The notes under the pieces: generated by a model | The model's input: only the letters and a program-made list of their open reading frames with translations | Told to the model about the DNA's origin: nothing | Database searches by the model: none | Made by a program: the position numbers and the translations under genes | Origin: Brachybacterium epidermidis | GTDB taxonomy: Bacteria; Actinomycetota; Actinomycetes; Actinomycetales; Dermabacteraceae | NCBI RefSeq assembly: GCF_015209585.1 | Contig: NZ_JADEYR010000001.1 | Span: 1-64,000 of the forward strand | Direction of reading: 5' to 3' | Length of the DNA: 64,000 nt | Shown here: piece by piece, positions 1 through 13,134 of the stretch | Layout: the number at the start of each line of letters is the position of its first letter | Numbering within the stretch: position 1 is the stretch's first letter

Positions 1-1
1 G

Positions 2-499
2 TCCAACGGCGGTCGACCCCCCCCCCCCCCTGCCCGCCGTGCCGTGGCGCGGCCCGACATCGACTCGCGCGACGGCCGCCCGGGCCTGACCGTGGTGTGC
101 GCCGCGCTGAACATCGCCACCGAGACCGTGCTGCGACCGGCCGTGCGCACCGTGGTGCTGGGAGGCGTGGCCGAGCCCTACTCCTTCGAGCTCATCGGCC
201 CCCTGGCCACCGCCACCATGCGGGACCTCTGGCTGGACACCATGTTCGTGGGCACCGTCGGCCTCGACGTCCACGCGGGCCTGACCTGCAACTCCGATGC
301 GGAAGCGGGGGTCACCCGGATCATGATCGGCCACTCCCGCCGCGTGGTGGGCCTGGCCACGGCCGAGAAGATCGGGCACCGTGCGCTCGCCGGCATCTGC
401 CCCGTCTCCGCACTCACCGACCTGGTGATCGCCGGGCCCGTCACCCCGGAGCTGCGCGAGCACCTCGAGGAGTCCTCAGTGCGCCTGCACGAGGTGTGA
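2..499 (+). CDS. DeoR-family transcriptional regulator, C-terminal part (5' truncated)
   Basis: The frame is open from the window edge, so this is the 3' end of a longer gene. The protein from residue ~30 on looks like the DeoRC effector domain (ISOCOT-like sugar-phosphate sensor) of DeoR/GlpR regulators: LTVVCAALNIATE, then VVLGG, a Gly-Pro pair, DTMFVGTVGLD, then a conserved Asp-Ala-Glu-Ala helix followed by ICPVSALTDLVI near the end. The N-terminal HTH lies outside the window. A run of 14 C at 17-30 falls where the conserved Asp-x-Gly-Thr-Thr motif would be expected, and the residues it encodes (prolines) do not fit the family. The reading frame upstream of the run is therefore unreliable. 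A downstream GTG at 44 would give 151 residues. The effector cannot be told. Confidence 0.7.
   Translation, partial: SNGGRPPPPPARRAVARPDIDSRDGRPGLTVVCAALNIATETVLRPAVRTVVLGGVAEPYSFELIGPLATATMRDLWLDTMFVGTVGLDVHAGLTCNSDAEAGVTRIMIGHSRRVVGLATAEKIGHRALAGICPVSALTDLVIAGPVTPELREHLEESSVRLHEV
17..30. repeat. 14-nt poly-C tract
   Basis: Fourteen consecutive C residues lie inside the DeoR-type coding frame. Such a tract could be a slippage-prone contingency site, but at a window edge in GC-rich DNA a sequencing or assembly artefact is at least as likely. Confidence 0.9.
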
Positions 500-589
500 A
501 CACGGCACCCGTGCCGAGCGCGACCCCGCTGTGAGGCACGCCTGACGCTCCCTACGGCACGCCTGCGCCTGCCTGTGGCGCGACCCCGG

Positions 590-595
590 TAGCGT
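590..595 (+). promoter_or_regulatory. -10 box TAGCGT of a leaderless promoter
   Basis: TAGCGT lies 8 nt before ATG 604 and no ribosome-binding site is present, so ATG 604 is preferred over the in-frame TTG at 595, which overlaps the box. Confidence 0.5.
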
Positions 596-603
596 TGCGG
601 GCT

Positions 604-3600
604 ATGTGGAGATTCCTGCGCGGGAAGAAGAGCCCCGACCCGTCGGCCCCGCCTGCCGACCGCCGCGACGACGCCCCGGCGGCGACCCGCGGCAGCACCC
701 GCGCCCCCTCCGCCACGGATGATGCCCACGGCGACGGCCCGTCCGTCCCGGCCGCCGGACCCCACAGCGCCGACGCCCCCGGCGGCGCCCGCCACGGTGC
801 ACACCTGGCCGAGCGGCGACGCGCCGGCGGTGAGCCCCCGCGCCACCCCGGGGTCGACGTCGTGGTCGAGCAGCGCCTGGGCGCGGCCGATGCCGGCACC
901 GCCCCCGAGCAGGAGGAGGACTCTCTTCCCCGGCTCCCGCGCGAGCACCGCCCCCTCAGCCGCGAGGACGTGGTGGCCGATGCCCTGGACCGCTGGCGCC
1001 AGCAGATCACCGGCGGTCAGACCGCGCCTTCGTTCCTCACCCAGATGCGCGCCGGCACCACCTTCCTGGACCTCACCCATTCCCACCCCTCGGGCCTTGC
1101 GCAGCTGCTGGCCGGGCGGGGCCCCACCCGGCTGTCCTCGCTGGTGCGGGAGGTGGGCGCGCTGGCAGATGCACGCGCCCATGCCCGCACCCTGCGGGAG
1201 ATCGCGGAGCGTCACGCCGAGGAGGTGGGCCTGACCACCTGCCACCTGGGCATCGGCGAGGCCACCTGGCACCCGGAGGACGGCTCCGAGCCCGTGCACG
1301 CACCGGTGCTGGTGCGGCCCATCACCCTGCGTCTGCGCGGCAACGCCCGCGAGGACGTCGACCTCGACCTCGACGCCACCGCAGATCTCAACCCGGTGCT
1401 GCTGCGCGCCCTGCGCGAGGCCGGCGTCGCGGTCGATGCCCGAGCTCTCCTGGCCACCACCGACAGCACCCACGGCTTCGACCCCAACCCGGTGCTGGAC
1501 GCCTTCCGCGCCCTCGGCCAGCCCCTGCCGGGCTTCCGCATCACCCACGCGCTGGTGGTCGGCAACATCATGGACGCCGCCGGTTCGGTGGGGGAGGACC
1601 TCGCCTCCGACCTGGGCGACTGGGCGAGCAGCCCCGTGGTGGCCGCACTCGCCGGCCACGGGCCCGCACGGGACGAGGTGCGGGCCGGAGTCCGGGAGCA
1701 GGAGGAGGGCCACCAGGACCAGGACGACACCCTTCGGCGGGACCCGGGCCGGGACGCTCCGGAGCAGGACGCCCCGGATCTGGACGTGCTGGTCCCGGAG
1801 GACGAGCTGGTCGCCGCCGTGGACCCGGACCACCGGGAGGCACTCGCCCACGTGCTGGCTGGCAAGCACCTGGCGATCGCGGCGCCCCCCGGCGCGGACA
1901 CCCTCGACCTGGTGGTGGACCTGGCCGAGGAGCTCAACGCCCGCGGCCGCAGCGTGCTGGTGGTCTCCCAGCGCCGCCGCAACCTCGCCCAGCTCACCGC
2001 CAGCGCCGAGCAGCGGGGCATCGACGAGCTGGTCTTCGACCTCTCCCCGGATCCGTCCCTGCAGCGCAACGCCTCCGCCTCCCTTCTGCGCAGCCTGCGG
2101 AGGGCAGGAACCTTCGGCCTGGGAGCCGAGGACTCCGCCGCCGAACCGGAGGAGCTCACCCGCACCCGCGAGATCCTCACCGGCCACGTCGAGGCCATGC
2201 ACCGGATCCAGCAGCCATGGGGTGCCTCCGCCCACGATGCGATCTCCGCGCTTGCGGCACTGACCCGCCAGCGGCCCGCGCCGCGCACCACCGTGCGGCT
2301 GCGCTCGGATGTGGCCGCCCAGATGATCGGCCAGGAGCGCGAGAGGTACGCCTCCGCCCTGCGCGAGGCGGCGACCGTGGGCGTGCTCAGCACCGGCCCG
2401 GAGACCACCGCCTGGTACGGGGCACCCATCAGCTCCGACACCCAGGCCGAGCGTGCCGCCGCCCTGGTCGACGAACTGCGGGAGGGCATGCTGCCCCAGC
2501 TGCACCGCGCCGCCACCGCCACCGGGGAGAGGATCGGACTGCGCCCCGTCGACTCCCTCGACGAGCTGCTGGGGCGCCTGTCGATGCTGGAGCGCGTGCG
2601 CGGCGTGCTCACGATCTTCCAGCCGGCCGTGTTCCGCGCCGAGCTCGCCGACCTGGTGGCCGCCACCGGAGACAAGACCTGGCGCGCCGAGAACGGCGTC
2701 ACCATGGGGTGGGGAGTGCGGCGCCGACTGCGCAAGGAGGGCGAGGCGCTGCAGCGCCCGGCCTCCCTCACCACGGACCTGCACCGCGACCTGATGGACG
2801 CGCGCCGGGTGCGCGACTCCTGGCGGCAGGTCGCCCAGGAGGACTCCGTCCTCCCCTCCGTCCCCGAGAACCTCGATCAGGTGCGCTCCACCGCGCAGCA
2901 CGCCCAGCGGATCCTCGATGAGCTCTCCGTGCTGCTGGACGGCACCGAGGCCGGTCACGCCCTGGCCCGCACCCCCTTCGAGCAGCTCCAGCAGCGCCTG
3001 GACGCCCTGGACCGCGACCGCGACGACCTGGAGACCCTGCCGCGCCGCACCGAGCTGCTGCGCCGCCTGGACTTCGACGGGCTCGGTGAGCTGGTGGAGG
3101 ACCTGCGCGCGCGCCGCGTACCGGCCGTCCACGTCACCAGCGAGCTGGACCTGGCGTGGTGGCGCAGTGTGCTGGAGTTCATCGCCGGCGCGGAGCCCAC
3201 CATCTCCCAGTACGACGGCACCTCCCTCTCCCAGGTCGCCGAGCGGTTCCGGCGCCTGGACGCCGAGCACCTGGCCGGCTCCTCCGCCCGCGTCCACGCC
3301 GCTGCCGACGAGGTGCGGGTGCGCACCATGAAGGCCTACCCCGACACCTCCCGGGCGGCGATCGCCGAGCTGGCCCGGGCCTCCACCGTCTCCATCCGGG
3401 ACCTCTCCGCGAAGTACGAGGACATCCTTTTCCGCTCGCGCCCCACCTGGCTGGCCTCGCCGTACCTGGTGCCCCAGGTGATCCCGCGCGGCCGTCACTT
3501 CGACGTGGTGATCGTGGCCGACGGCGGGCGGCTGCCCACCGCTGCGGCGCTGCCGTCGATCGTGCGAGCAGCCCAGACCGTGGTGGTCGGTGACCCGCTG

Positions 3601-5367
3601 GAGTACGGAGGGGACCAGCAGCCCAGCCTGCTGGACGACATGCTGCGGATCGCCACCCACGTGGAGCTGGGGCGGGACGACCGCCCCGCCGCCGAGGGGC
3701 TCCGCGCCTTCGCCCAGCGCCGCGCGCTGGTGCGCGAGGTGCAGGCCGTGCCCAGTCCGGTCGCCTCCGAACCGGACCGCCTGGTGCTGGTGGAGAACGG
3801 GCGCGGCCCGGTCACCGCCGGCATGGAGTACGTGGAGAGCACCGAGGGTGAGCTGCGCCGGGTCACCGACCTGGTGATCGAGCACGCCCGCAGCCGCCCG
3901 GAGCGGTCCCTCGCGGTGCTCACCTTCACCGAGGAGCATGCCCGGCGCCTGATGGAGCGGATCATGCAGACCGTCGCGGTGATCCCGGCACTGCGCGGCT
4001 TCTTCGACCCTGCGGCCAAGGAGTTCTTCACCGTGCTGCCGGCCGCCCACGCCTCGAGCATCGTGCGCGATGACGTGATCGTCTCGGTGGGCTTCGGCCG
4101 CACCCCGCACGGACGCCTGCTGCACCGCTTCGGCCCGCTGTCGGAGGCCGGGGGCCGCAAGGCCCTGGGCACCGTCATCACCCGAGCGCGGGGTCGCACC
4201 ACCGTGGTCTCCTCGATCGATGTGCAGGACCTGGACCCCGCGCGTCTGCGCTCCGACGGCGCCCGGGATCTGCGCGCCATGCTCTGGGTGCTGCGCGGCG
4301 GGGCCGACGTCGAGGTGGTGCCGCAGGTGGCGGCCCTGACCGGAAGCGATCAGGTGACCCCGGCGCAGCCCGCCCCCGCACCCACCCCCGACCCGACTCC
4401 CGTCTCCGGCCCCGCGGCCGAGCCGGCGCCGGAGGCCGCGCACAGCAGCCCCGCCGAGGCCGAGACGTCGATGCCCGCAGAGGCCCCTGATGGCGGCCGC
4501 GCCGAGGGGGCGGAGATGTCCGACGAGGACTTCGACGCCGCCCTCGAGGCCGCCCTGGCCCGCAAGTCCACCGGCGACACCGCAGCGAACGATGCCACCG
4601 CCGAGGATGAGTCGGGCCCCGGGGCGCAGGCGGCGGCAGTCGGCAGCTCGTCCGAGGCCGCGGCACACGCCGAGGCGGAGGGCACGGCGGAGCAGCCAGC
4701 AGACGACGCCGTACAGGAGCCCGTCGACAGCGCCGGGCAGGAGCCCGTCGACGGCCCCGCCGGGGAGCTGGAGACCGATGCCCTGGTGCGGGACCTCGCC
4801 GATCGCCTCTGGCGGCTGGGACTCGTGGTGGAGAGCGACTTCGGCTCCACCTCGGACCGCATCGAACTGGCCCTGGGCCACCCCGAGCTGCCCGGTCGCC
4901 TGCTGCTGGCCGTGGACACCGACGGCTCCCGCTACGTGGGCACCGCCAGTCAGCGCGAGCGCGACCGCCTGCGCGCCGAGCGACTGGAGGAGGCAGGCTG
5001 GGCCACCGAACGGGTGTGGTCCTGGGCGCTGTTCATCGACCCCGACGGGGAGGCCGAGCGGATCCGCCGCGCCGTGGAGCGGGCCCTGCGCCTGGTGCAG
5101 ACCGACGAGCAGGCCGATGCCCTCACCGGTGTGGGCACCGTGCGCCACCGCCTCCCGCGGCCGCAGATCCCCGCCGGGCACCCGCTCTCGTTCTACTCCA
5201 GTGAGGACTTCGACGCGGTGGTGGAGTACATCTGCTCCGACGGCCGTGCCCGCCTCGAGGAGCACCTGGCCACGGAGGTGCGCAGCTTCCTGGGCTTCGA
5301 GCAGCGCTCCGTGCTGCTGGACGTGTCCGTCTCCAGCGCGATCCGCCGCTATCAGGAGCGGCAATGA
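604..5367 (+). CDS. Large SF1 helicase-like protein with degenerate ATPase motifs and C-terminal endonuclease-like domain
   Basis: The 1587-residue protein aligns by motif order with DUF4011-type AAA/SF1 helicases. After a low-complexity N-terminus (1-~110) come an unassigned region and a Walker A position at ~427-434, here APPGADTL where the family has GPPGTGKS. A long helical insert follows. The Walker B position (~966-976) reads FDVVIVADGGR where FDxVIFDEASQ is expected. A recognisable motif VI region (FGPLSEAGGRKALGTVITRA, then VVSSI) lies near residue 1180. Residues ~1250-1385 are an Ala/Glu/Pro linker. The C-terminus (~1390-1490) resembles the restriction-endonuclease-like domain of this family (IELAL, LLLAVDTDG, RERDRLR, GWATERVWSW). 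The lost Walker lysine and acidic pair suggest no ATP hydrolysis. The next gene overlaps by ATGA. Confidence 0.75.
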   Translation: MWRFLRGKKSPDPSAPPADRRDDAPAATRGSTRAPSATDDAHGDGPSVPAAGPHSADAPGGARHGAHLAERRRAGGEPPRHPGVDVVVEQRLGAADAGTAPEQEEDSLPRLPREHRPLSREDVVADALDRWRQQITGGQTAPSFLTQMRAGTTFLDLTHSHPSGLAQLLAGRGPTRLSSLVREVGALADARAHARTLREIAERHAEEVGLTTCHLGIGEATWHPEDGSEPVHAPVLVRPITLRLRGNAREDVDLDLDATADLNPVLLRALREAGVAVDARALLATTDSTHGFDPNPVLDAFRALGQPLPGFRITHALVVGNIMDAAGSVGEDLASDLGDWASSPVVAALAGHGPARDEVRAGVREQEEGHQDQDDTLRRDPGRDAPEQDAPDLDVLVPEDELVAAVDPDHREALAHVLAGKHLAIAAPPGADTLDLVVDLAEELNARGRSVLVVSQRRRNLAQLTASAEQRGIDELVFDLSPDPSLQRNASASLLRSLRRAGTFGLGAEDSAAEPEELTRTREILTGHVEAMHRIQQPWGASAHDAISALAALTRQRPAPRTTVRLRSDVAAQMIGQERERYASALREAATVGVLSTGPETTAWYGAPISSDTQAERAAALVDELREGMLPQLHRAATATGERIGLRPVDSLDELLGRLSMLERVRGVLTIFQPAVFRAELADLVAATGDKTWRAENGVTMGWGVRRRLRKEGEALQRPASLTTDLHRDLMDARRVRDSWRQVAQEDSVLPSVPENLDQVRSTAQHAQRILDELSVLLDGTEAGHALARTPFEQLQQRLDALDRDRDDLETLPRRTELLRRLDFDGLGELVEDLRARRVPAVHVTSELDLAWWRSVLEFIAGAEPTISQYDGTSLSQVAERFRRLDAEHLAGSSARVHAAADEVRVRTMKAYPDTSRAAIAELARASTVSIRDLSAKYEDILFRSRPTWLASPYLVPQVIPRGRHFDVVIVADGGRLPTAAALPSIVRAAQTVVVGDPLEYGGDQQPSLLDDMLRIATHVELGRDDRPAAEGLRAFAQRRALVREVQAVPSPVASEPDRLVLVENGRGPVTAGMEYVESTEGELRRVTDLVIEHARSRPERSLAVLTFTEEHARRLMERIMQTVAVIPALRGFFDPAAKEFFTVLPAAHASSIVRDDVIVSVGFGRTPHGRLLHRFGPLSEAGGRKALGTVITRARGRTTVVSSIDVQDLDPARLRSDGARDLRAMLWVLRGGADVEVVPQVAALTGSDQVTPAQPAPAPTPDPTPVSGPAAEPAPEAAHSSPAEAETSMPAEAPDGGRAEGAEMSDEDFDAALEAALARKSTGDTAANDATAEDESGPGAQAAAVGSSSEAAAHAEAEGTAEQPADDAVQEPVDSAGQEPVDGPAGELETDALVRDLADRLWRLGLVVESDFGSTSDRIELALGHPELPGRLLLAVDTDGSRYVGTASQRERDRLRAERLEEAGWATERVWSWALFIDPDGEAERIRRAVERALRLVQTDEQADALTGVGTVRHRLPRPQIPAGHPLSFYSSEDFDAVVEYICSDGRARLEEHLATEVRSFLGFEQRSVLLDVSVSSAIRRYQERQ

Positions 5368-5654
5368 GCACCGAGCGCCCCGGGGGAGGGGAGCACCGGC
5401 CTCGGCGCGGGCCGGTGGTGATCTCCTCCCTCACCGGCAAGCCGATGGAGTGGGATCCCGATGCGGGCACGACGCGTGACCCGGGCGCATCGGCCGGCGC
5501 GGGTTCCCCGCGCGCCACCGGCAGCGCTTCGGGCCGGCGGCGCCCGATCCTCCCGGACCGTCTGGACGAGGACCAGCCGGAGCCGGGCGCCGATGAGTCC
5601 AACGACGCCCGCATCGCGGGTGATGTGCCTCCCCACTGGGGCCGCGGCCGCTGA
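5364..5654 (+). CDS. Small hydrophilic protein of unknown function
   Basis: This 96-residue protein is rich in Pro, Gly, Arg and Asp and has no membrane segment or signal peptide. Its ATG overlaps the stop codon of the helicase-like gene (ATGA), so translation is probably coupled. The N-terminal half has an ordered-looking stretch, VVISSLTGKPMEWDPDAG; the middle is low-complexity; the end is DDARIAGDVPPHWGRGR-like (reads NDARIAGDVPPHWGRGR). The coupling suggests a partner of the upstream protein. No family was recognised. Confidence 0.6.
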   Translation: MSTERPGGGEHRPRRGPVVISSLTGKPMEWDPDAGTTRDPGASAGAGSPRATGSASGRRRPILPDRLDEDQPEPGADESNDARIAGDVPPHWGRGR

Positions 5655-5673
5655 CCCCCGGCCCCCCGAGACG

Positions 5674-5679
5674 TACGCT
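5674..5679 (+). promoter_or_regulatory. -10 box TACGCT of a leaderless promoter
   Basis: TACGCT ends 6 nt before ATG 5686 and no Shine-Dalgarno sequence is present. This fixes the start of the DUF368 gene. Confidence 0.5.
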
Positions 5680-5685
5680 GGAGCG

Positions 5686-6681
5686 ATGACCGAGAGCGCG
5701 GCCACCACGACCACGACGTCCCCCTCCCCGCAGGAGACCGTCCGCGGGCCACGCCACCGCAACGTCCTCGGCAATGCCGCTCGCGGCGCGCTGATCGGCC
5801 TGGTGGAGACCATCCCCGGTGTCAGTGGGGGCACCGTAGCCCTGGTCACCGGGATCTACGACGAGCTGATCGATTCCGGCCACCACCTCACCTCCGCGGT
5901 GCGGCGCCTGGTCACCGGGCCTGACCGCCGCCAGGGTGTCCTCAACGAGCTCCGGGCGGTGCCCTGGGTGCTGGTGGTGCCGCTGATGATCGGCATGGCG
6001 CTGGCCGTGCTGCTGGTTGCCGGTCCCATGGCCCACCTGGTGGAGACCAGTCCCCAGCTGATGCGGGCCCTGTTCTTCGGCCTGGTGCTGGGCAGTGTGC
6101 TGGTGCCGATCAAGCTCTCCGGCGGCGCCTGGCGCGCGCCCGAGCTGGCACTGTTCGCCGCCGGTGCCCTCGGAGCGTTCGTGGCCACCTCCCTGCCCGG
6201 GGCGGCCCTCGAGCCGAGCCCGTGGGTGATCGCCCCTGCCGCCGCGATCGCCGTGTGTGCCCTGGTGCTGCCGGGCCTGTCCGGCTCGTTCATCCTGCTC
6301 ACCCTGGGTCTCTACCAGCCCACGCTGCGCGCGGTCGATGCGCTGGACATCGGCTACATCGCCTGGTTCGGGCTGTGGGCGCTGGTGGGCCTGGTGGTGA
6401 TCGTGCGGATCATGCGCGTGCTGCTGGTGCGGCACCACCGCGGCACCATGGTGGTGCTGGCCGGTCTGATGATCGGAGCCCTGCGCACCCTGTGGCCCTG
6501 GCAGGACGCCGGCGGAGGCCTGCTGGCACCGGAGGCGAACTGGCCGCTGCTGATCGCCACGGCGATCGGCGGAGTGGTCCTGGTGCAGCTGCTGGTGCTG
6601 ATCGAAGGGCGCACCATCGACCGCGATCGGGACACGGGCGGCGGTGGCGACCCCTCCGCGATCGCACCCGCTGGATCCTGA
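5686..6681 (+). CDS. popT: DUF368 family polyprenyl-phosphate (undecaprenyl phosphate) transporter
   Basis: The 331-residue polytopic membrane protein carries the DUF368 signature near its N-terminus (GALIGLVETIPGVSGGTVAL, residues ~34-53). A second, repeat-related half contains VLPGLSGSFILLTLGLY. About eight hydrophobic segments can be picked out. DUF368 proteins (PopT) have been shown to recycle undecaprenyl phosphate across the membrane for cell-wall synthesis; the assignment here rests on the family motif. The gene has its own leaderless-type promoter and stands between an unrelated small ORF and proC. Confidence 0.85.
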   Translation: MTESAATTTTTSPSPQETVRGPRHRNVLGNAARGALIGLVETIPGVSGGTVALVTGIYDELIDSGHHLTSAVRRLVTGPDRRQGVLNELRAVPWVLVVPLMIGMALAVLLVAGPMAHLVETSPQLMRALFFGLVLGSVLVPIKLSGGAWRAPELALFAAGALGAFVATSLPGAALEPSPWVIAPAAAIAVCALVLPGLSGSFILLTLGLYQPTLRAVDALDIGYIAWFGLWALVGLVVIVRIMRVLLVRHHRGTMVVLAGLMIGALRTLWPWQDAGGGLLAPEANWPLLIATAIGGVVLVQLLVLIEGRTIDRDRDTGGGGDPSAIAPAGS

Positions 6682-6743
6682 ACCCCTCCGCCGGCTCCGG
6701 TTCCTGGGGCTCCGTGCGCGGTGCTGCTCCCGAGACCGGCCAC

Positions 6744-6749
6744 TACCCT
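6744..6749 (+). promoter_or_regulatory. -10 box TACCCT of a leaderless promoter (proC)
   Basis: TACCCT lies 7 nt before ATG 6757 with no ribosome-binding site. It supports that start over an in-frame ATG at 6721. Confidence 0.5.
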
Positions 6750-6756
6750 GGGATCC

Positions 6757-7701
6757 ATGACGGACAGCACCACGCCCCGGACCACGGCCCACCCCGATGC
6801 AGCCACCGCCGATGCAGCAGCTGGGGACGCAGCAGCCCCGGTTGCGTCATCCCGTGCTGACGGTGCCGAATCCGAGGCCCCCGGTCACGACCTCGCGGAC
6901 CTCACCATCGTGGTGATCGGGGCGGGCAACATGGGCGGCCCCGTGGTGCAGGCGTTCCTCGCCTCCGGGGCCGATGCCGGCATGGTGCTGATCTCCAACT
7001 CCACCCCGGACAGCAGTGCCCGCGCCGCCCAGGAGCTCGGCGCGACCGCTGTCGAGGACCGCTCCTCCGCGCTGCGCGAGGCCGACGTGGTGGTCCTGGG
7101 CGTCAAGCCGTACCAGATCGTGGAGCTCACCTCGGAGATCGCCGAACTGATCCGCGAGGACGCCATCGTGATCTCCCTGGCCGCTGGGATCACCCTGCAG
7201 GCCATCGAGGACGTGCTGCCGGCGGGCCGCCCCGTCGTGCGGGCGATGCCCAACACCCCCATCTCGGTGGGGGAGGGTGCCGTTGGACTGATGCGCGGCA
7301 GCGCCGTCACCGAGTCGCAGCACGCGCTGGTGCGCGCCCTGTTCGCGCGGGCCGGGGTGGTCGAGGACATCACCGAGGAGCAGGTCCACGCCTTCATCGG
7401 CGCCGCGGGCTCGCTCTCGGCCTTCACCTTCTCCCTGATCGAGGCGATGACCGACGAGGCCGTGCGGCTGGGACTGAAGCGCGATCTGGCCGACCGCCTG
7501 GTGCAGCAGACCGTGCGCGGCGCCGCCACCATGCTGATGCGGACAGGTCAGCACCCCGCGGTCGCCAAGAACGGGGTGTCCAGCCCCGGGGGCACCACTG
7601 TCGAGGGCCTGGCGGTGATGGAGCGCCAGGGCGTGCGCCCCGGCATCGCCGCGGCCATGCAGGCCGCCGCCGAGCGCTCACGCGAGCTCACCGGGGAGTG
7701 A
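6757..7701 (+). CDS. proC: Pyrroline-5-carboxylate reductase
   Basis: ProC catalyses the last step of proline synthesis, NAD(P)H-dependent reduction of pyrroline-5-carboxylate. The 314-residue protein has a Rossmann motif (VVIGAGNMGGPV, residues ~49-60), the family pattern VRAMPNTPISVGEGA mid-protein, and the C-terminal helical region VSSPGGTTVEGLAVME that closes the active site. An Ala-rich extension of about 45 residues precedes the Rossmann fold; typical ProC is ~270 residues. The gene ends 3 bp before the convergent ktrA-like gene. Confidence 0.95.
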   Translation: MTDSTTPRTTAHPDAATADAAAGDAAAPVASSRADGAESEAPGHDLADLTIVVIGAGNMGGPVVQAFLASGADAGMVLISNSTPDSSARAAQELGATAVEDRSSALREADVVVLGVKPYQIVELTSEIAELIREDAIVISLAAGITLQAIEDVLPAGRPVVRAMPNTPISVGEGAVGLMRGSAVTESQHALVRALFARAGVVEDITEEQVHAFIGAAGSLSAFTFSLIEAMTDEAVRLGLKRDLADRLVQQTVRGAATMLMRTGQHPAVAKNGVSSPGGTTVEGLAVMERQGVRPGIAAAMQAAAERSRELTGE

Positions 7702-7704
7702 GGT

Positions 7705-8373
7705 TCACGGACGGGTGGAGAACCGCTCGATCAGGTCGGTGTGCCCCGAGACGATCAGCAGGTCGTGCTGGGTCACGATGGTCTCCGGCGTGGCGTAGGT
7801 GAAGTCCCGGCCCGGGGACTTCACACCCACCACGGTCACGCCGTAGGTGGCGCGGATGTCCGACTGCGCCAGCGTGTAGCCCTGGGTCTCACGCGGGGGC
7901 CGCATCTTCACGATCGCGAAGCCGTCGTCGAACTCGATGAAGTCCAGCAGACGGCCGTTGACCAGGTGGGCCACGCGACGGCCGGCGTCGGCCTCCGGGA
8001 ACACCACGTGATGGGCGCCGATCCGCTCCAGGATCTTGCCGTGCGAGGAGGAGATCGCCTTCGCCCAGATCACCGGCTTGCCCAGGTCCACCAGGTTCGC
8101 GGTGATCAGCACGCTGGCCTCCAGGGAGGTGCCCACGCCCACCACCGCCACGGAGAACTCCGCGGCACCGATCTGTGCCAGGGACTCCATCTGGGTGGCG
8201 TCGGCCTGCACCACGTGGGTGAGGCGGCCGGAGTACTCCTGCACCAGGTCGTCACGGGTGTCCACGGCGAGCACGTCGGTGCCCAGCTCCTCGAGCGTCA
8301 GGGCGATCGAGGCGCCGAACCGACCCAGGCCGATCACCAGCACTCCGCTGTCGTCGCGTTCTCTGCGAGGCAC
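7705..8373 (-). CDS. ktrA: Potassium channel regulatory subunit (KtrA/TrkA, RCK domain)
   Basis: The 222-residue cytosolic protein has one RCK_N domain (Rossmann VIGLGRFGASIA near the N-terminus, acidic end of strand 2 in AVDTR) and one RCK_C domain, the size of KtrA rather than the duplicated TrkA. It gates the ion-conducting subunit encoded just upstream (8428-9843) through nucleotide binding. The start is GTG 8373: an AAGGAGGA site ends 3 nt upstream, whereas the earlier ATG at 8397 has none. A TAGACT box at 8398-8403 could give this gene its own promoter with a short leader. The 54-bp gap to the channel gene still permits cotranscription. Confidence 0.9.
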   Translation of the reverse strand: MPRRERDDSGVLVIGLGRFGASIALTLEELGTDVLAVDTRDDLVQEYSGRLTHVVQADATQMESLAQIGAAEFSVAVVGVGTSLEASVLITANLVDLGKPVIWAKAISSSHGKILERIGAHHVVFPEADAGRRVAHLVNGRLLDFIEFDDGFAIVKMRPPRETQGYTLAQSDIRATYGVTVVGVKSPGRDFTYATPETIVTQHDLLIVSGHTDLIERFSTRP

Positions 8374-8427
8374 GTCTCCTCCTTCGTCGGCCGCCACAGT
8401 CTAGGTCCGTGCCGGACTCCTGCGTGA

Positions 8428-9843
8428 TCAGCCCACCACCGGGCGCTCGTGCGGCAGGCGCACCATCCGCGAGCGTTGCCGCAGTGCCAGCGCCGCCCCC
8501 AGGGTCATCGGGCCCAGGCGCCCCACGTACATGCACACGATGATCACGTACTTCGCCGGGCCGGACAGATCCGGGGTGATGCCGGTGCTCAGGCCCACGG
8601 TGCCGAAGGCGGAGAGCGCCTCGAACAGGGTCTGGTCCAGGGTGAAGGGGGTGATGCGCAGCAGCGCGAAGGTGGCCGCGAACACCACCGCTGCGCTCAT
8701 CACCAGCACGCCGATCGCCTGCCGGATCGTCTCCTGCGGGATGCGCCGGCCGAAGGCCTCCACATCGGGGTTGCCACGGATCTCCGCCCAGATCGACAGC
8801 ACCAGCAGCGCGAAGGTGGTCACCTTGATGCCGCCGCCGGTGGAGCCCGAACCGCCGCCGATGAACATCAGCAGGTCGATGAACAGGCGTGACTCACCGG
8901 TCATCTGGCCGATGTCCAGGGTGGCGAAGCCCCCGGAGCGCGGCATCACCGAGGCGAAGGCCGCCGCCAGCAGCTTGGTGCCCACCGAGTGTTCACCCAG
9001 GGTGGCCGGATGGGCCCACTCCATCAGCAGCAGCCCCAGCCAGCCGGCCCCCAGCAGGACCCCGGAGGTCGCGGGGGTGAGCTGGGAGGGCGGGGACCGG
9101 CGGGGGGGCGGGCGCCAGGCCCGGGCCACCGCCAGTATCACCGGGAAGCCCAGCGATCCCACCGCGACCGCGAGGCCCACCGGCACGGTGAAGAACGGAT
9201 CGGCCAGGTACTGCGCGGTGCCGGCCGCCTCGGGGACGAACCCCGCGTTGTTGAACGCGCTGATCGCGTAGAACAGCCCCAGGAACAGCGACTCGCCCAG
9301 GCCGTGCTCGGTGACGATCATGTACGGCGTCAGCGCCACGAAGGTGGCCGCCTCGAAGGCGGTCGAGGTGATCACGATGGTGCGCAGCACCCCGCCCACC
9401 TCGGCCAACTGCTCGGCGCGGGTCTCCCGCGCCGCGATCAGGCGCTGTGCGAGCCCCATCGACCGCAGCACCGACAGTCCCAGCAGGGAGGCCAGGGTGA
9501 GCACGCCCAGCCCGCCCACCTTCATCGCGATCATGATGACCACCAGCCCGAAGGTGGACCAGTGGGTACCGGTGTCCACGGTCACCAGGCCCGTCACGCA
9601 GATCGCGGAGACAGCGGTGAACAGGGCGTCCACGAAGGGGGTGCGCTGCCCGTCGGCCGCGGCGATCGGCAGTGACAGCAGCGCGGTGAACACGCCGATC
9701 ATGGCGGTGAACACGATCAGCAGCAGGCGCGCGGGGGAGGAGCGTCCCAGCTCCTCGAAGAACTCGCTGATCGCGCGCCGCCAGCGGGCATTGCGCGACA
9801 TGGGCGGCAGATGGCTCGGGGTGCCCGTCACGCGAACGGCCAT
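8428..9843 (-). CDS. ktrB: TrkH/KtrB-family potassium transport membrane subunit
   Basis: The 471-residue membrane protein has four pore-loop repeats, each with a selectivity-filter glycine: AICVTGLVTVDT, AFNNAGFV, GSGSTGGGIKVTTF and FGTVGLSTGIT. This is the TrkH/KtrB architecture for K+ uptake coupled to Na+ or H+. The ATG at 9843 is preceded by AGGAGG at a 4-5 nt spacing. The regulatory subunit follows on the same strand. The divergent acuC gene starts 98 bp away. Confidence 0.93.
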   Translation of the reverse strand: MAVRVTGTPSHLPPMSRNARWRRAISEFFEELGRSSPARLLLIVFTAMIGVFTALLSLPIAAADGQRTPFVDALFTAVSAICVTGLVTVDTGTHWSTFGLVVIMIAMKVGGLGVLTLASLLGLSVLRSMGLAQRLIAARETRAEQLAEVGGVLRTIVITSTAFEAATFVALTPYMIVTEHGLGESLFLGLFYAISAFNNAGFVPEAAGTAQYLADPFFTVPVGLAVAVGSLGFPVILAVARAWRPPPRRSPPSQLTPATSGVLLGAGWLGLLLMEWAHPATLGEHSVGTKLLAAAFASVMPRSGGFATLDIGQMTGESRLFIDLLMFIGGGSGSTGGGIKVTTFALLVLSIWAEIRGNPDVEAFGRRIPQETIRQAIGVLVMSAAVVFAATFALLRITPFTLDQTLFEALSAFGTVGLSTGITPDLSGPAKYVIIVCMYVGRLGPMTLGAALALRQRSRMVRLPHERPVVG

Positions 9844-9928
9844 GGCACCTCCTGCTGGTCTTCGGGGCCCGCGCAGCTGCGCGCCCTCGTCGCGGCGCAG
9901 TCTACGTCGGCATGCGGCCTGCGCTGGG

Positions 9929-9934
9929 TACGCT
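9929..9934 (+). promoter_or_regulatory. -10 box TACGCT of a leaderless promoter (acuC)
   Basis: TACGCT lies 7 nt before ATG 9942 and favours that codon over the in-frame ATG at 9912, which would sit upstream of the promoter. Confidence 0.5.
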
Positions 9935-9941
9935 TCGGGAC

Positions 9942-11186
9942 ATGCTGGCAGACGACGCGCCGCCCACCACCACTGCGGATTCCTGCGCGGTGGTGTGGGA
10001 CGAGGGGTTCTGCCGCTACGACTTCGGGCCCTACCACCCCATGTCCCCGGTGCGCCTGACCCTCACCCTCGACCTGGCGCGGGCGGCCGGACTGCTGGAT
10101 CGTCCCGGCGTCGAGGTGATCGAGGCGCCGGTGGCGAGCGAAGAGCAGCTGGCCACCGTGCACGAGCGCCCCTACATCGAAGCGGTGCGGCGCGCCTCCG
10201 CCCCGCTGCTGCTGGAGGCGCACGACGAGCTGATCGGCGTGGGTATCGGCGGGGACGACGTCCCTGCCTTCCCCGGCATGCACGAGGCCTCGGCCCAGAT
10301 CGTCGGCGGCTCGATCGCGGCGATCGACGCGATCCGCTCGGGCCGCGTCGCCCGCGCGGTCAACGTGGCCGGCGGCATGCACCATGCCCGTCCCGGCCGG
10401 GCCTCCGGGTTCTGCGTGTACAACGACGCGGCGATCGCCATCCGCCACGCCATCGACGAGGGCGAGCCGCGAGTGCTGTACGTCGACGTGGACGTCCACC
10501 ACGGCGACGGCGTGGAACGGGCCCTGTGGGACGAGCCCCGGGCCGTCACCGTCTCCATCCACGAGAGCGGGGAGCACCTGTTCCCCGGCACCGGCTTCGT
10601 GCAGGACACCGGCGGTGCGGGTGCGCTGGGCTCCGCGATCAACGTCCCTCTGCCGCCCCGCACCGATGCCGACGGCTGGGTGCGGGCGATCCGCGCCACG
10701 GTGCCCGCGCTGGCCCGAGCGATCCGCCCCACCCTGCTGGTCACCCAGCACGGAGCGGACACCCATCGGGTGGACCCCCTGGCCGACTTCACCGTCTCCC
10801 TGGAGGCGCAGCGCGCGGTGATGGTGCTGATGCGCGAGATCGCCGACGAGGTGTGCGAGGGCCGCTGGCTGGCCCTGGGCGGCGGCGGGTACGCGGTGGT
10901 GGACGTGGTGCCGCGCTCCTGGGCGCACCTGATCGCGGTGGCCACCGGTGACCCGGTGGACCCCGATCAACCCCTGCCGCAGGCCTACCTGAACGCGGAG
11001 GCCCGCGCGCGACTCGAGCACGGGCTCACCCCGGAGCCGGCGATCCGCACCTTCGGGGACGGCAGGCCGCTGGCCGTGCGCGACTGGGAATCCGGCTTCG
11101 ATCCGGAGGATCCTCTGGACCGAGCGGTCCAGGCCGCCCGCCGGGCCGCCTTCCCCGAATGGGGCCTGGACCCGTTCCACGACTGA
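9942..11186 (+). CDS. acuC: AcuC-like histone deacetylase family protein
   Basis: The 414-residue protein has the class I/II deacetylase fold signatures: GGMHHARPGRASGFCVYND with the catalytic His pair, YVDVDVHHGDG with metal-binding Asp and His, TQHGADTHRVDPL with the second metal Asp, and GGGGYAVVD. AcuC removes acetyl or acyl groups from lysines and is known to reactivate acetyl-CoA synthetase in Bacillus. No acs gene is present here, so the target is unknown. It is monocistronic, between divergent ktrB and the GTPase pair. Confidence 0.9.
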   Translation: MLADDAPPTTTADSCAVVWDEGFCRYDFGPYHPMSPVRLTLTLDLARAAGLLDRPGVEVIEAPVASEEQLATVHERPYIEAVRRASAPLLLEAHDELIGVGIGGDDVPAFPGMHEASAQIVGGSIAAIDAIRSGRVARAVNVAGGMHHARPGRASGFCVYNDAAIAIRHAIDEGEPRVLYVDVDVHHGDGVERALWDEPRAVTVSIHESGEHLFPGTGFVQDTGGAGALGSAINVPLPPRTDADGWVRAIRATVPALARAIRPTLLVTQHGADTHRVDPLADFTVSLEAQRAVMVLMREIADEVCEGRWLALGGGGYAVVDVVPRSWAHLIAVATGDPVDPDQPLPQAYLNAEARARLEHGLTPEPAIRTFGDGRPLAVRDWESGFDPEDPLDRAVQAARRAAFPEWGLDPFHD

Positions 11187-11286
11187 CGACCACGGCGGAT
11201 CGGTGCCCGGCCCTCGCCGAGCATCCGTCGCGGGAGGGACACCTGCCACAATGAGCCCGTCACATCACCGTCCCGACGGGGGAACC

Positions 11287-13134
11287 ATGAACGACCGGGG
11301 ATCCATCACCACGGAGCAGCCCACCGTGCTCGGCACCTTCGCCGAGGACCTGCGCTCCTTGGAGCTCCCGTTGCCCATCGAGGGAGCGGAGCAGGCCCGC
11401 CGGGAGGTCTCCGGGGCCCTGTCCCAGCTCGCCGACCACGTCGCTCCGCGCCTGGCCTCCCTGGACGCCCCGCTGCTGGTGGTGGTGGGCGGCTCCACCG
11501 GTGCCGGCAAGTCCACCCTCGTCAACGCCCTGGTGGGGCATCCGGTCAGCCGCACCGGCGCCATCCGCCCCACCACCCGGCGGCCCGTGCTGCTGCACCA
11601 TCCCGAGGACTCCGCCTGGTTCGCCGGCTCGCGGATCCTGCCGGGCCTGGCGCGGGTGCGCGGGGACGGCCAGCCCGTCGCAGCGCAGGAGGCCCTTCCC
11701 CCCGCCGGCGGTGATGCCGGGGCGGCCGGTGCCGGGGACGAGGCCGCCGCCACCAGCCTCGAGCTGCGCGCCGAGCCCTCCATCCCCCGGGGCCTTGCGA
11801 TCCTGGATGCCCCCGACATCGACTCCGTCTCCACCGGGAACCGGGAGCTGGCCCGCCAGCTGCTGCGCGCCGCCGACCTGTGGCTGTTCGTCACCACCGC
11901 CAACCGCTACGCGGACGCCGTGCCCTGGGAGGTGCTGCGCACCGCCGCCGAGCGGGACGTCACCGTCGCCGTGGTGATGAACCGCATTCCGGACAGGCCC
12001 GGCGTCGCCGAGGAGCTGGGCCCGGACCTGCGCGCCATGCTGGATCGCGAGGGCATCGAGGTGGCACGCCTGTTCCTGGTGGTCGAGAGCGAGGTCGACG
12101 AGCGCGGCATGCTGCCCGCTGCCGCCGTCGGCGAGCTCACCGGGCACCTGCGGGACCTCGCCGCCGATGCGGAGGGCCGCGGAGCGATCGCCCGCCGCAC
12201 CCTCGCCGGGGCCGTGGGCCGCCTGGCCGGCTCCGCCCGCGAGATCGCCGACCATGCCCGCATGCAGGAGTCCGAGCGGGACCGCCTGCACGCCGAGGTG
12301 GTGGCCGCCTTCGCCGATGCCCGCGACCGCATCGAGCAGTCCATCGGGGACGGCTCCCTGCTCCGAGGCGAGGTGCTGGCCCGCTGGCAGGACGTGGTGG
12401 GCACCGGCGAGTTCTTCCGCGGGGTGGAGAGCTTCGTGGGGCGCATGCGCGATCGCATCGGCGAGATGCTCAGCGGCCGCCCCGCCCCCTCGGTCGCCGC
12501 GGAGCAGGCCCTGGGCACGAGCCTCGTGCACGTGGTCATCGACGAGACCGCACGCGGTGCCGAGCGCGCCGAGCAGTCCTGGCGCAGCAGCCCCGCCGGG
12601 CGCTACCTCGCCGAGGGCCAGGACCTCTCCCGCATCCCCGACGGGTACGGGGAGGAGGTCGCCGCTGCCGTGCGCGCCTGGCAGGGCGACGTGCTGGAGC
12701 TGGTGCGCCAGGAAGGCGCGGACCGTCGCACCCAGGCCCGGCTGATGTCCCTCGGTGTCAACGTGGTCGGGGTGGCACTGATGATCGCCGTGTTCGCCTC
12801 CACCGCCTTCATCCCCACCGGCCTCGAGGTCGGCGTGGGGGCCGGCACCGCCGTGGTCGGCCAGAAGCTGCTGGAGACCCTCTTCGGCGACGAGGCCGTG
12901 CGCCGCATGGCGCGCATCGCCCGCGAACGCCTCACCACCCGCCTGGACTCCCTGGTCGCCGGGCGGTCCGCGCCCTTCGAGGACCGCCTGGCGGAGCTGA
13001 GCGGCATCGGCGGGGCCGAAGCGCTGGATGCCGATGCTGACGCCCTCGAGGCCCTGGCCGCCGAGATCCGCGAGGACCGCGGCGCACGCCCCGAGCAGGG
13101 CACGGCATCTGCAGACTGGGAGGGTCCCCGATGA
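11287..13134 (+). CDS. Dynamin-like GTPase, first of a tandem pair
   Basis: The 615-residue protein has a G domain with P-loop GSTGAGKST (residues ~69-77), switch region TTRRPVLL, an Asp-Ala-Pro-Asp G3 equivalent (LDAPDID, where GTPases have DxxG) and a VVMNRIPD G4-like motif. A long helical stalk follows, with hydrophobic segments at ~515-560. The layout matches bacterial dynamin-like proteins, often annotated as GTPase or ABC transporter in actinobacteria; Streptomyces DynA/DynB is the studied tandem pair, acting in septation. ATG 11287 was chosen for the GGGGGAA just upstream; ATG 11251 is the alternative. Its stop overlaps the next start (ATGA), which implies coupled synthesis of two partners. 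Confidence 0.8.
   Translation: MNDRGSITTEQPTVLGTFAEDLRSLELPLPIEGAEQARREVSGALSQLADHVAPRLASLDAPLLVVVGGSTGAGKSTLVNALVGHPVSRTGAIRPTTRRPVLLHHPEDSAWFAGSRILPGLARVRGDGQPVAAQEALPPAGGDAGAAGAGDEAAATSLELRAEPSIPRGLAILDAPDIDSVSTGNRELARQLLRAADLWLFVTTANRYADAVPWEVLRTAAERDVTVAVVMNRIPDRPGVAEELGPDLRAMLDREGIEVARLFLVVESEVDERGMLPAAAVGELTGHLRDLAADAEGRGAIARRTLAGAVGRLAGSAREIADHARMQESERDRLHAEVVAAFADARDRIEQSIGDGSLLRGEVLARWQDVVGTGEFFRGVESFVGRMRDRIGEMLSGRPAPSVAAEQALGTSLVHVVIDETARGAERAEQSWRSSPAGRYLAEGQDLSRIPDGYGEEVAAAVRAWQGDVLELVRQEGADRRTQARLMSLGVNVVGVALMIAVFASTAFIPTGLEVGVGAGTAVVGQKLLETLFGDEAVRRMARIARERLTTRLDSLVAGRSAPFEDRLAELSGIGGAEALDADADALEALAAEIREDRGARPEQGTASADWEGPR

Follow-up and report, generated by a model that had tools for sequence, protein, structure and literature searches.

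What does a bacterium keep when it keeps a long helicase–nuclease whose motor residues are gone? This question is raised by a gene near the start of the window, the whole stretch of 64,000 nucleotides of Brachybacterium epidermidis DNA analysed here, which begins at a contig end of a 3.07-Mb genome. A preliminary description of the DNA had taken the gene product for a DUF4011-type SF1 protein without either Walker motif, from a family often linked to defence, and had proposed a structural, sensing or nuclease role for it.

A full-length gene without motor motifs

The open reading frame is a real gene (Table 1), and its start is backed by an N-terminus, MW.(F/L)LRGKK, that is conserved in relatives. 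The 1,587-residue product scored 60 bits against Pfam MTES_1575 (gathering cut-off 38.2). Its motif order is that of a DUF4011-type SF1 protein, as had been described, with a DUF4011 profile match that is itself marginal (21.2 bits for the protein against a cut-off of 22.2, and 25.2 bits in a genome search). Pfam gave no match to DUF3320, HEPN or transglutaminase domains in this protein, and a search of solved structures with its sequence returned no match.

Structure models were consistent with the domain assignment, short of proving it. AlphaFold, run with 23 sequences, yielded a weak model of residues 104–1240 (mean pLDDT 63, pTM 0.47), for which the best Foldseek matches were a RecBCD chain, IGHMBP2, Upf1 and Dna2, with a probability of about 1 for the latter three and TM-scores below 0.2. 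This model is too weak for locating residues in three dimensions. The C-terminal 208 residues were modelled better (pLDDT 72), as a nuclease fold followed by a three-helix domain, and the nuclease fold was closest to homing endonuclease I-Bth0305I (TM 0.72 by target length, E 0.04).

Table 1 Features of the pseudo-helicase gene and its overlapping neighbour in the window
Feature	Position	Strand	Basis or remarks
Pseudo-helicase gene	604..5367	+	1587 aa; PADLOC PDC-S37-like; conserved start codon, full-length orthologues
N-terminal region, variable, low-complexity (residues 1-104)	604..915	+	Zero invariant columns; dN/dS 0.2-0.7
DUF4011-like N-terminal domain (about residues 118-360)	955..1683	+	W222, N263 and H161 near-invariant
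Degenerate Walker A / P-loop APPGADTL (residues 427-434)	1882..1905	+	Alignment with relatives
Degenerate motif II ADGG (residues 972-975); DEAS in intact relatives	3517..3528	+	Alignment
RecA-2A motif V/VI region, DD.IVS.GFGRTPHG ... VITRAR, still recognisable	4066..4191	+	Alignment
Acidic/Ala-rich linker, fast-evolving (residues 1241-1385)	4324..4758	+	dN/dS 0.57-1.3
MTES_1575 Vsr/PD-(D/E)xK-type nuclease domain	4759..5103	+	Three acidic positions: E1421, D1438, D1440
C-terminal helical winged-helix-like domain (DUF3320-like position)	5131..5364	+	Three helices in model; MTES_1575 layout (PMC3710099)
Overlapping small gene, 96 aa, C-terminus ...NDARIAGDVPPHWGRGR	5364..5654	+	Start lies in the ATGA that includes the pseudo-helicase stop

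Both Walker motifs depart from those of an active SF1 motor. The P-loop has neither the lysine nor the serine or threonine of GK[S/T], and motif II, in the context FDVVIVADGG, has alanine and aspartate at the canonical D and E positions of Walker B (DE..). The TRAR of motif VI is retained at residues 1193–1196, and no other P-loop was found in the 1,587-residue protein. We retrieved 27 Dermabacteraceae loci, 25 of which held orthologues long enough for alignment; motif II reads AD.. in all 25, and motif VI persists as TRAR or near variants. A basal member of the family (G561, L200) also lacks both motifs, and orthologues with an intact GKS/T and DEAS occur only in other families of the order. 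The motif loss is not chance, since the Walker lysine is missing in 25/25 Dermabacteraceae orthologues and in every row of the lost clade that holds the window protein (58/58), and is present at the same column in 23/23 intact relatives. The earlier observation is confirmed, and the losses noted in the single sequence are fixed throughout the Dermabacteraceae alignment.

The extent of the loss had been understated, as relaxation reaches beyond the Walker motifs to motifs Ia, III and IV and, in part, to motif VI. When columns of the 58-row lost clade were compared with those of the 23 intact rows, the K433 column carried 0.64 bit of information in the former and 6.40 in the latter, and the same relaxation was seen at K457 (motif Ia), Q1000 (motif III), N1038/Y1026 (motif IV) and N1189 (motif VI). 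Residues that stayed invariant or near-invariant in the lost clade include N263 and W222 in the DUF4011 part, W604, R706 and W740 in the middle helical part, and D967, G1184, D1440 and W1466. Judged from these columns, the motor chemistry is released and the scaffold is not, because catalytic columns have relaxed while scaffold residues stay near-invariant. Among the closest well-aligned Brachybacterium pairs, dN/dS was 0.04–0.10 in the DUF4011 part, about 0.02–0.12 in the nuclease domain and 0.57–1.3 in the linker; pair values for locus L010 past the helicase part were disregarded, being distorted by a frame break in that locus. Helicase and nuclease parts occupy separate ORFs in L010 (Brachybacterium sp. 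Z12) and in G002 (L036), through either a frame break or an assembly error.

Distribution, locus and repeated loss

A homologue was present in 59 of 59 genomes from 35 genera of the order in a first survey and in 295 of 297 genomes, representing 93/93 genera, in a larger one; the two genomes without it are draft assemblies of 170 and 580 contigs. The gene is retained down to genomes of 0.8–0.9 Mb and in all 30 genera of family f16. Class-wide, 51 of 198 genomes matched, mainly from this order and one further family (f34), and in the order of G102 a close homologue occurred in only 2 of 79 genomes, intact in both. The family searches of 150–200 genomes used a 1,090-residue core as the query.

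Most families of the order carry the gene at one shared locus beside mscL. Intact members (G016, G027 and G058) and lost members lie at this same conserved locus, convergent with mscL, among neighbours whose names were read from sequence rather than by profile search: a CpaB-like SAF protein, fmdB, 5-FCL, penicillin acylase, galU and moeA (neighbourhood genes were called with a codon-bias gene picker). This conserved placement and presence in 295/297 genomes differ from the patchy, defence-island distribution expected of an accessory defence gene. Near-universal and not sporadic in the order, and held at a conserved housekeeping locus, the pseudo-helicase is a retained core component of the order rather than a decaying or accessory defence gene, with a role that is probably non-enzymatic. 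The earlier suggestion of a gene kept at full length, probably for a structural role, is upheld.

In family f34, which lies outside the order, arginine uniformly replaces the Walker lysine and the DE of motif II is mostly ED; two of the four neighbourhoods examined there are mscL-linked with the same flanking genes. In Dermabacteraceae the gene has moved from the mscL locus and is flanked, within positions 1–12,000 of the window, by a DeoR-like regulator fragment on one side and by DUF368, proC, trkA and trkH on the other (names again taken from sequence). The search for a conserved upstream partner yielded only an FHA-domain gene in family f4 (L120 6242–7432; L133 11337–12428), which immediately precedes the pseudo-helicase in the same orientation and is present also in a 0.8-Mb genome; otherwise the upstream genes differ. 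No active helicase or nuclease partner was found in an operon with the gene in the neighbourhoods examined, unlike recBCD/addAB.

Intact orthologues in families f5 and f16 carry GPPGTGKSQT, DEASQ and an intact-looking nuclease, and f16 also holds many graded decays (GASQ/EEAS, GATQ/ESAG, GRTQ/EDAG and others). In a FastTree tree of 107 rows, built with motif columns excluded, a single loss spans 58 rows (16 families), and further losses fall in f16, f34 and f24. Counting losses only, from an intact root whose placement on two sporadic intact homologues is an assumption, the lysine requires 9 losses, or 8, 8 and 6 with branches below 90, 95 and 99 support dissolved; the same scheme gave 8 losses of motif II, and 7, 7 and 5 at those support levels. 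Unrooted change counts on this tree were 7 for the lysine and 5 for motif II, and an IQ-TREE tree of 63 rows again placed lost members inside intact clades, with 8 and 7 changes. Since two families keep GPPGTGKSQT/DEASQ at the same locus and the tree needs about 6–9 losses, the ancestral enzyme was probably intact, and the Walker lysine has probably been lost independently about 6–9 times. That this mosaic arose by lateral spread of intact copies is not supported, since the locus is common to intact and lost members and the sequences group mostly according to family.

A small overlapping gene ending in PPHW

The preliminary description had missed a small, unannotated ORF that overlaps the helicase stop by 4 nucleotides (Table 1) and encodes a protein ending in PPHW. 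The overlapping start recurs in nearly all Dermabacteraceae loci. Among aligned loci, the PPHW tail lay next to the helicase in 70, was joined to its C-terminus by in-frame fusion in 14 and was not found in 15, of which 11 belong to f34, where the tail lies farther off; 11 more loci had too little flank to score. In nearly every family of the order for which enough flank was available, the ORF adjoins the helicase gene or is fused to it; the fusions, in f10, f17, f12, f6 and f16, involve both lost and intact helicases. The tail motif reads (LP..)..(D/E)D.D.GWGE...D.RL...(R/V/K)PPHW. PPHW itself is invariant in 23 aligned tails, which had been picked for PPHW, and the C-terminal 26 codons of the gene have a median dN/dS of 0.29 in Dermabacteraceae.

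The PPHW protein family had no match in Pfam, NCBIfam or PHROG, and a literature search on PPHW found no relevant paper. A profile search recovered the protein in 157 of 198 genomes of the class at E values up to 0.1, a permissive threshold at which the weakest matches are unsure; the window's genome had one match. Strong matches come also from families that lack the helicase, and there the protein ends in PPHH or PPHW and its gene often adjoins mscL. We therefore rejected the idea that the PPHW gene is a dedicated partner of the pseudo-helicase; it is probably an older small gene, present across the class, with which the helicase became linked. In Dermabacteraceae the two genes stayed together though the locus left mscL, which argues for a shared function of their products. 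The coupling could instead be positional, the PPHW gene having its own function, since it is present class-wide without the helicase. Further along the same strand, a DUF368-like membrane protein ORF (5461–6681, +) has a listed start that falls within the PPHW gene; the true one probably lies downstream, at about 5680.

A retained scaffold and its alternatives

To our knowledge, only a handful of inactive SF1 helicase scaffolds have been described (RecC and AddB). We tentatively propose, with confidence a little short of even, that the pseudo-helicase is a DUF4011/SF1 helicase–nuclease kept as a RecC/AddB-like scaffold that works with the PPHW protein. An ATP-hydrolysing ancestor would have become a pseudo-helicase kept for what its RecA-like, DUF4011, nuclease-fold and winged-helix domains offer as scaffold and binding surfaces. 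Within a complex with other proteins, the inactive motor fold would hold or recognise nucleic acid but not translocate; the PPHW protein would be its most likely physical partner, and the short conserved C-terminal motif of that protein may dock the complex on another component. Computation establishes the loss of motifs, how deep and how repeated it is, purifying selection, presence in nearly the whole order, the genetic coupling and the fusions, whereas the lack of ATP hydrolysis, the binding of nucleic acid, the contact between the two proteins and the cellular process that is served are our inference; the scaffold reading rests on sequence because the structure model of the main part is weak.

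AddB and RecC are described as SF1 folds without motor motifs that were co-opted as single-stranded DNA scanners within a complex (PMC4824097). The proposed likeness is that of an inactive SF1 fold kept as a nucleic-acid-recognising scaffold (PMC4824097), and no kinship is claimed; the window protein appears to be a Upf1-like SF1 protein with DUF4011, and no active partner gene lies next door. MTES_1575, from which the nuclease family takes its name, comprises an SF1 helicase, a Vsr nuclease and two winged helices overlapping DUF3320, together with HEPN and transglutaminase domains (2013 survey, PMC3710099). Proteins of this type share the helicase–nuclease–wHTH order of the window protein, whose nuclease passes the Pfam cut-off, but the window protein is about 500 residues shorter and has lost the motor motifs.

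A role in defence, as an ATP-independent sensor or effector against phages, appears unlikely. The best match in the PADLOC library was PDC-S37, a profile for a candidate single-gene defence family (5.7e-94, 314 bits over five stretches; a curated cut-off is not given) on which we found no relevant paper, and partial matches to the NCBIfam anti-phage proteins ProA (NF058533) and Hhe (NF042953) point to distant homology across the helicase part; the two close homologues in another order are, moreover, sporadic and intact. However, the NCBIfam scores are a small fraction of the equivalog cut-offs (287 bits against 1500 for ProA, 141 against 2000 for Hhe), and the gene differs from an accessory system, and from PDC-S37 as a candidate defence family, in being an order-wide core gene with lost motifs, mostly with one such homologue per genome, in a conserved housekeeping neighbourhood and down to genomes of 0.8–0.9 Mb. 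It is this distribution that disfavours defence, and here the preliminary description was less right.

We consider it quite unlikely that the protein is a nuclease-only effector, in which a dead helicase serves as platform, the Vsr-like domain still cuts and the winged helix guides it. The acidic triad of intact relatives (D..E.D) corresponds to E1421, D1438 and D1440 in the window protein, which are conservative swaps, and because all three positions are still acidic this protein may possess nuclease activity; the MTES_1575 score and the strong constraint on the domain in well-aligned pairs also favour cutting. Yet all three positions are acidic in just 14 of 58 lost-clade rows and 0 of 15 f34 rows, and Dermabacter has alanine at the second, so cutting cannot be a function common to all pseudo-helicases. 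The complete D/E/D is found in 19/23 intact rows, 6/58 lost rows and 0/15 from f34. The nuclease-like C-terminus that had been said to persist does so as a fold, with catalytic positions changed here (E/D/D for D/E/D), eroded in many lost-clade rows and lost outright in many families.

That the motor still binds nucleotide, or makes use of it, by way of non-canonical residues, perhaps as a nucleotide-gated switch, is very unlikely. The PPG turn and the motif V/VI positions D1156 and R1196 remain common in the lost clade, and the arginine of f34 is uniform, but the lysine and serine or threonine of motif I, the D and E of motif II, the glutamine of motif III and motif IV are all relaxed. These relaxed positions also differ between families, which does not fit a conserved alternative nucleotide site. 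Decay, with the gene kept by chance or tolerated as a pseudogene, is extremely improbable and was rejected on distribution and dN/dS: many lineages show erosion of nuclease residues and of helicase motifs, Walker and others, the linker is almost free to change and the nuclease part is a separate ORF in two genomes, but the ORF is full length in almost every genome, some residues are near-invariant order-wide, dN/dS is low where the protein is folded and reduced genomes retain the gene.

The scaffold reading extends to a broader proposal, for and against which we see the case as evenly balanced: an order-wide two-part system in which a pseudo-helicase/pseudo-nuclease scaffold that has lost its catalytic sites independently about 6–9 times, together with a class-wide, unnamed PPH[W/H] micro-protein family repeatedly fused to it, would serve an actinobacterial core process. 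What appears to be new is that an inactive helicase scaffold, itself of a kind already known, is coupled with a micro-protein family not described before; a conserved micro-protein without family assignment is thereby brought to light beside mscL across the class. A candidate-defence profile such as PDC-S37 can pick up a core gene that nearly a whole order carries, and counts of defence genes in such genomes would be inflated as a result. One enzyme family has apparently lost its activity several times over at a single locus, yet the gene remained near-universal, and its intact, half-lost and lost orthologues form a natural series for asking what the protein does without its motor.
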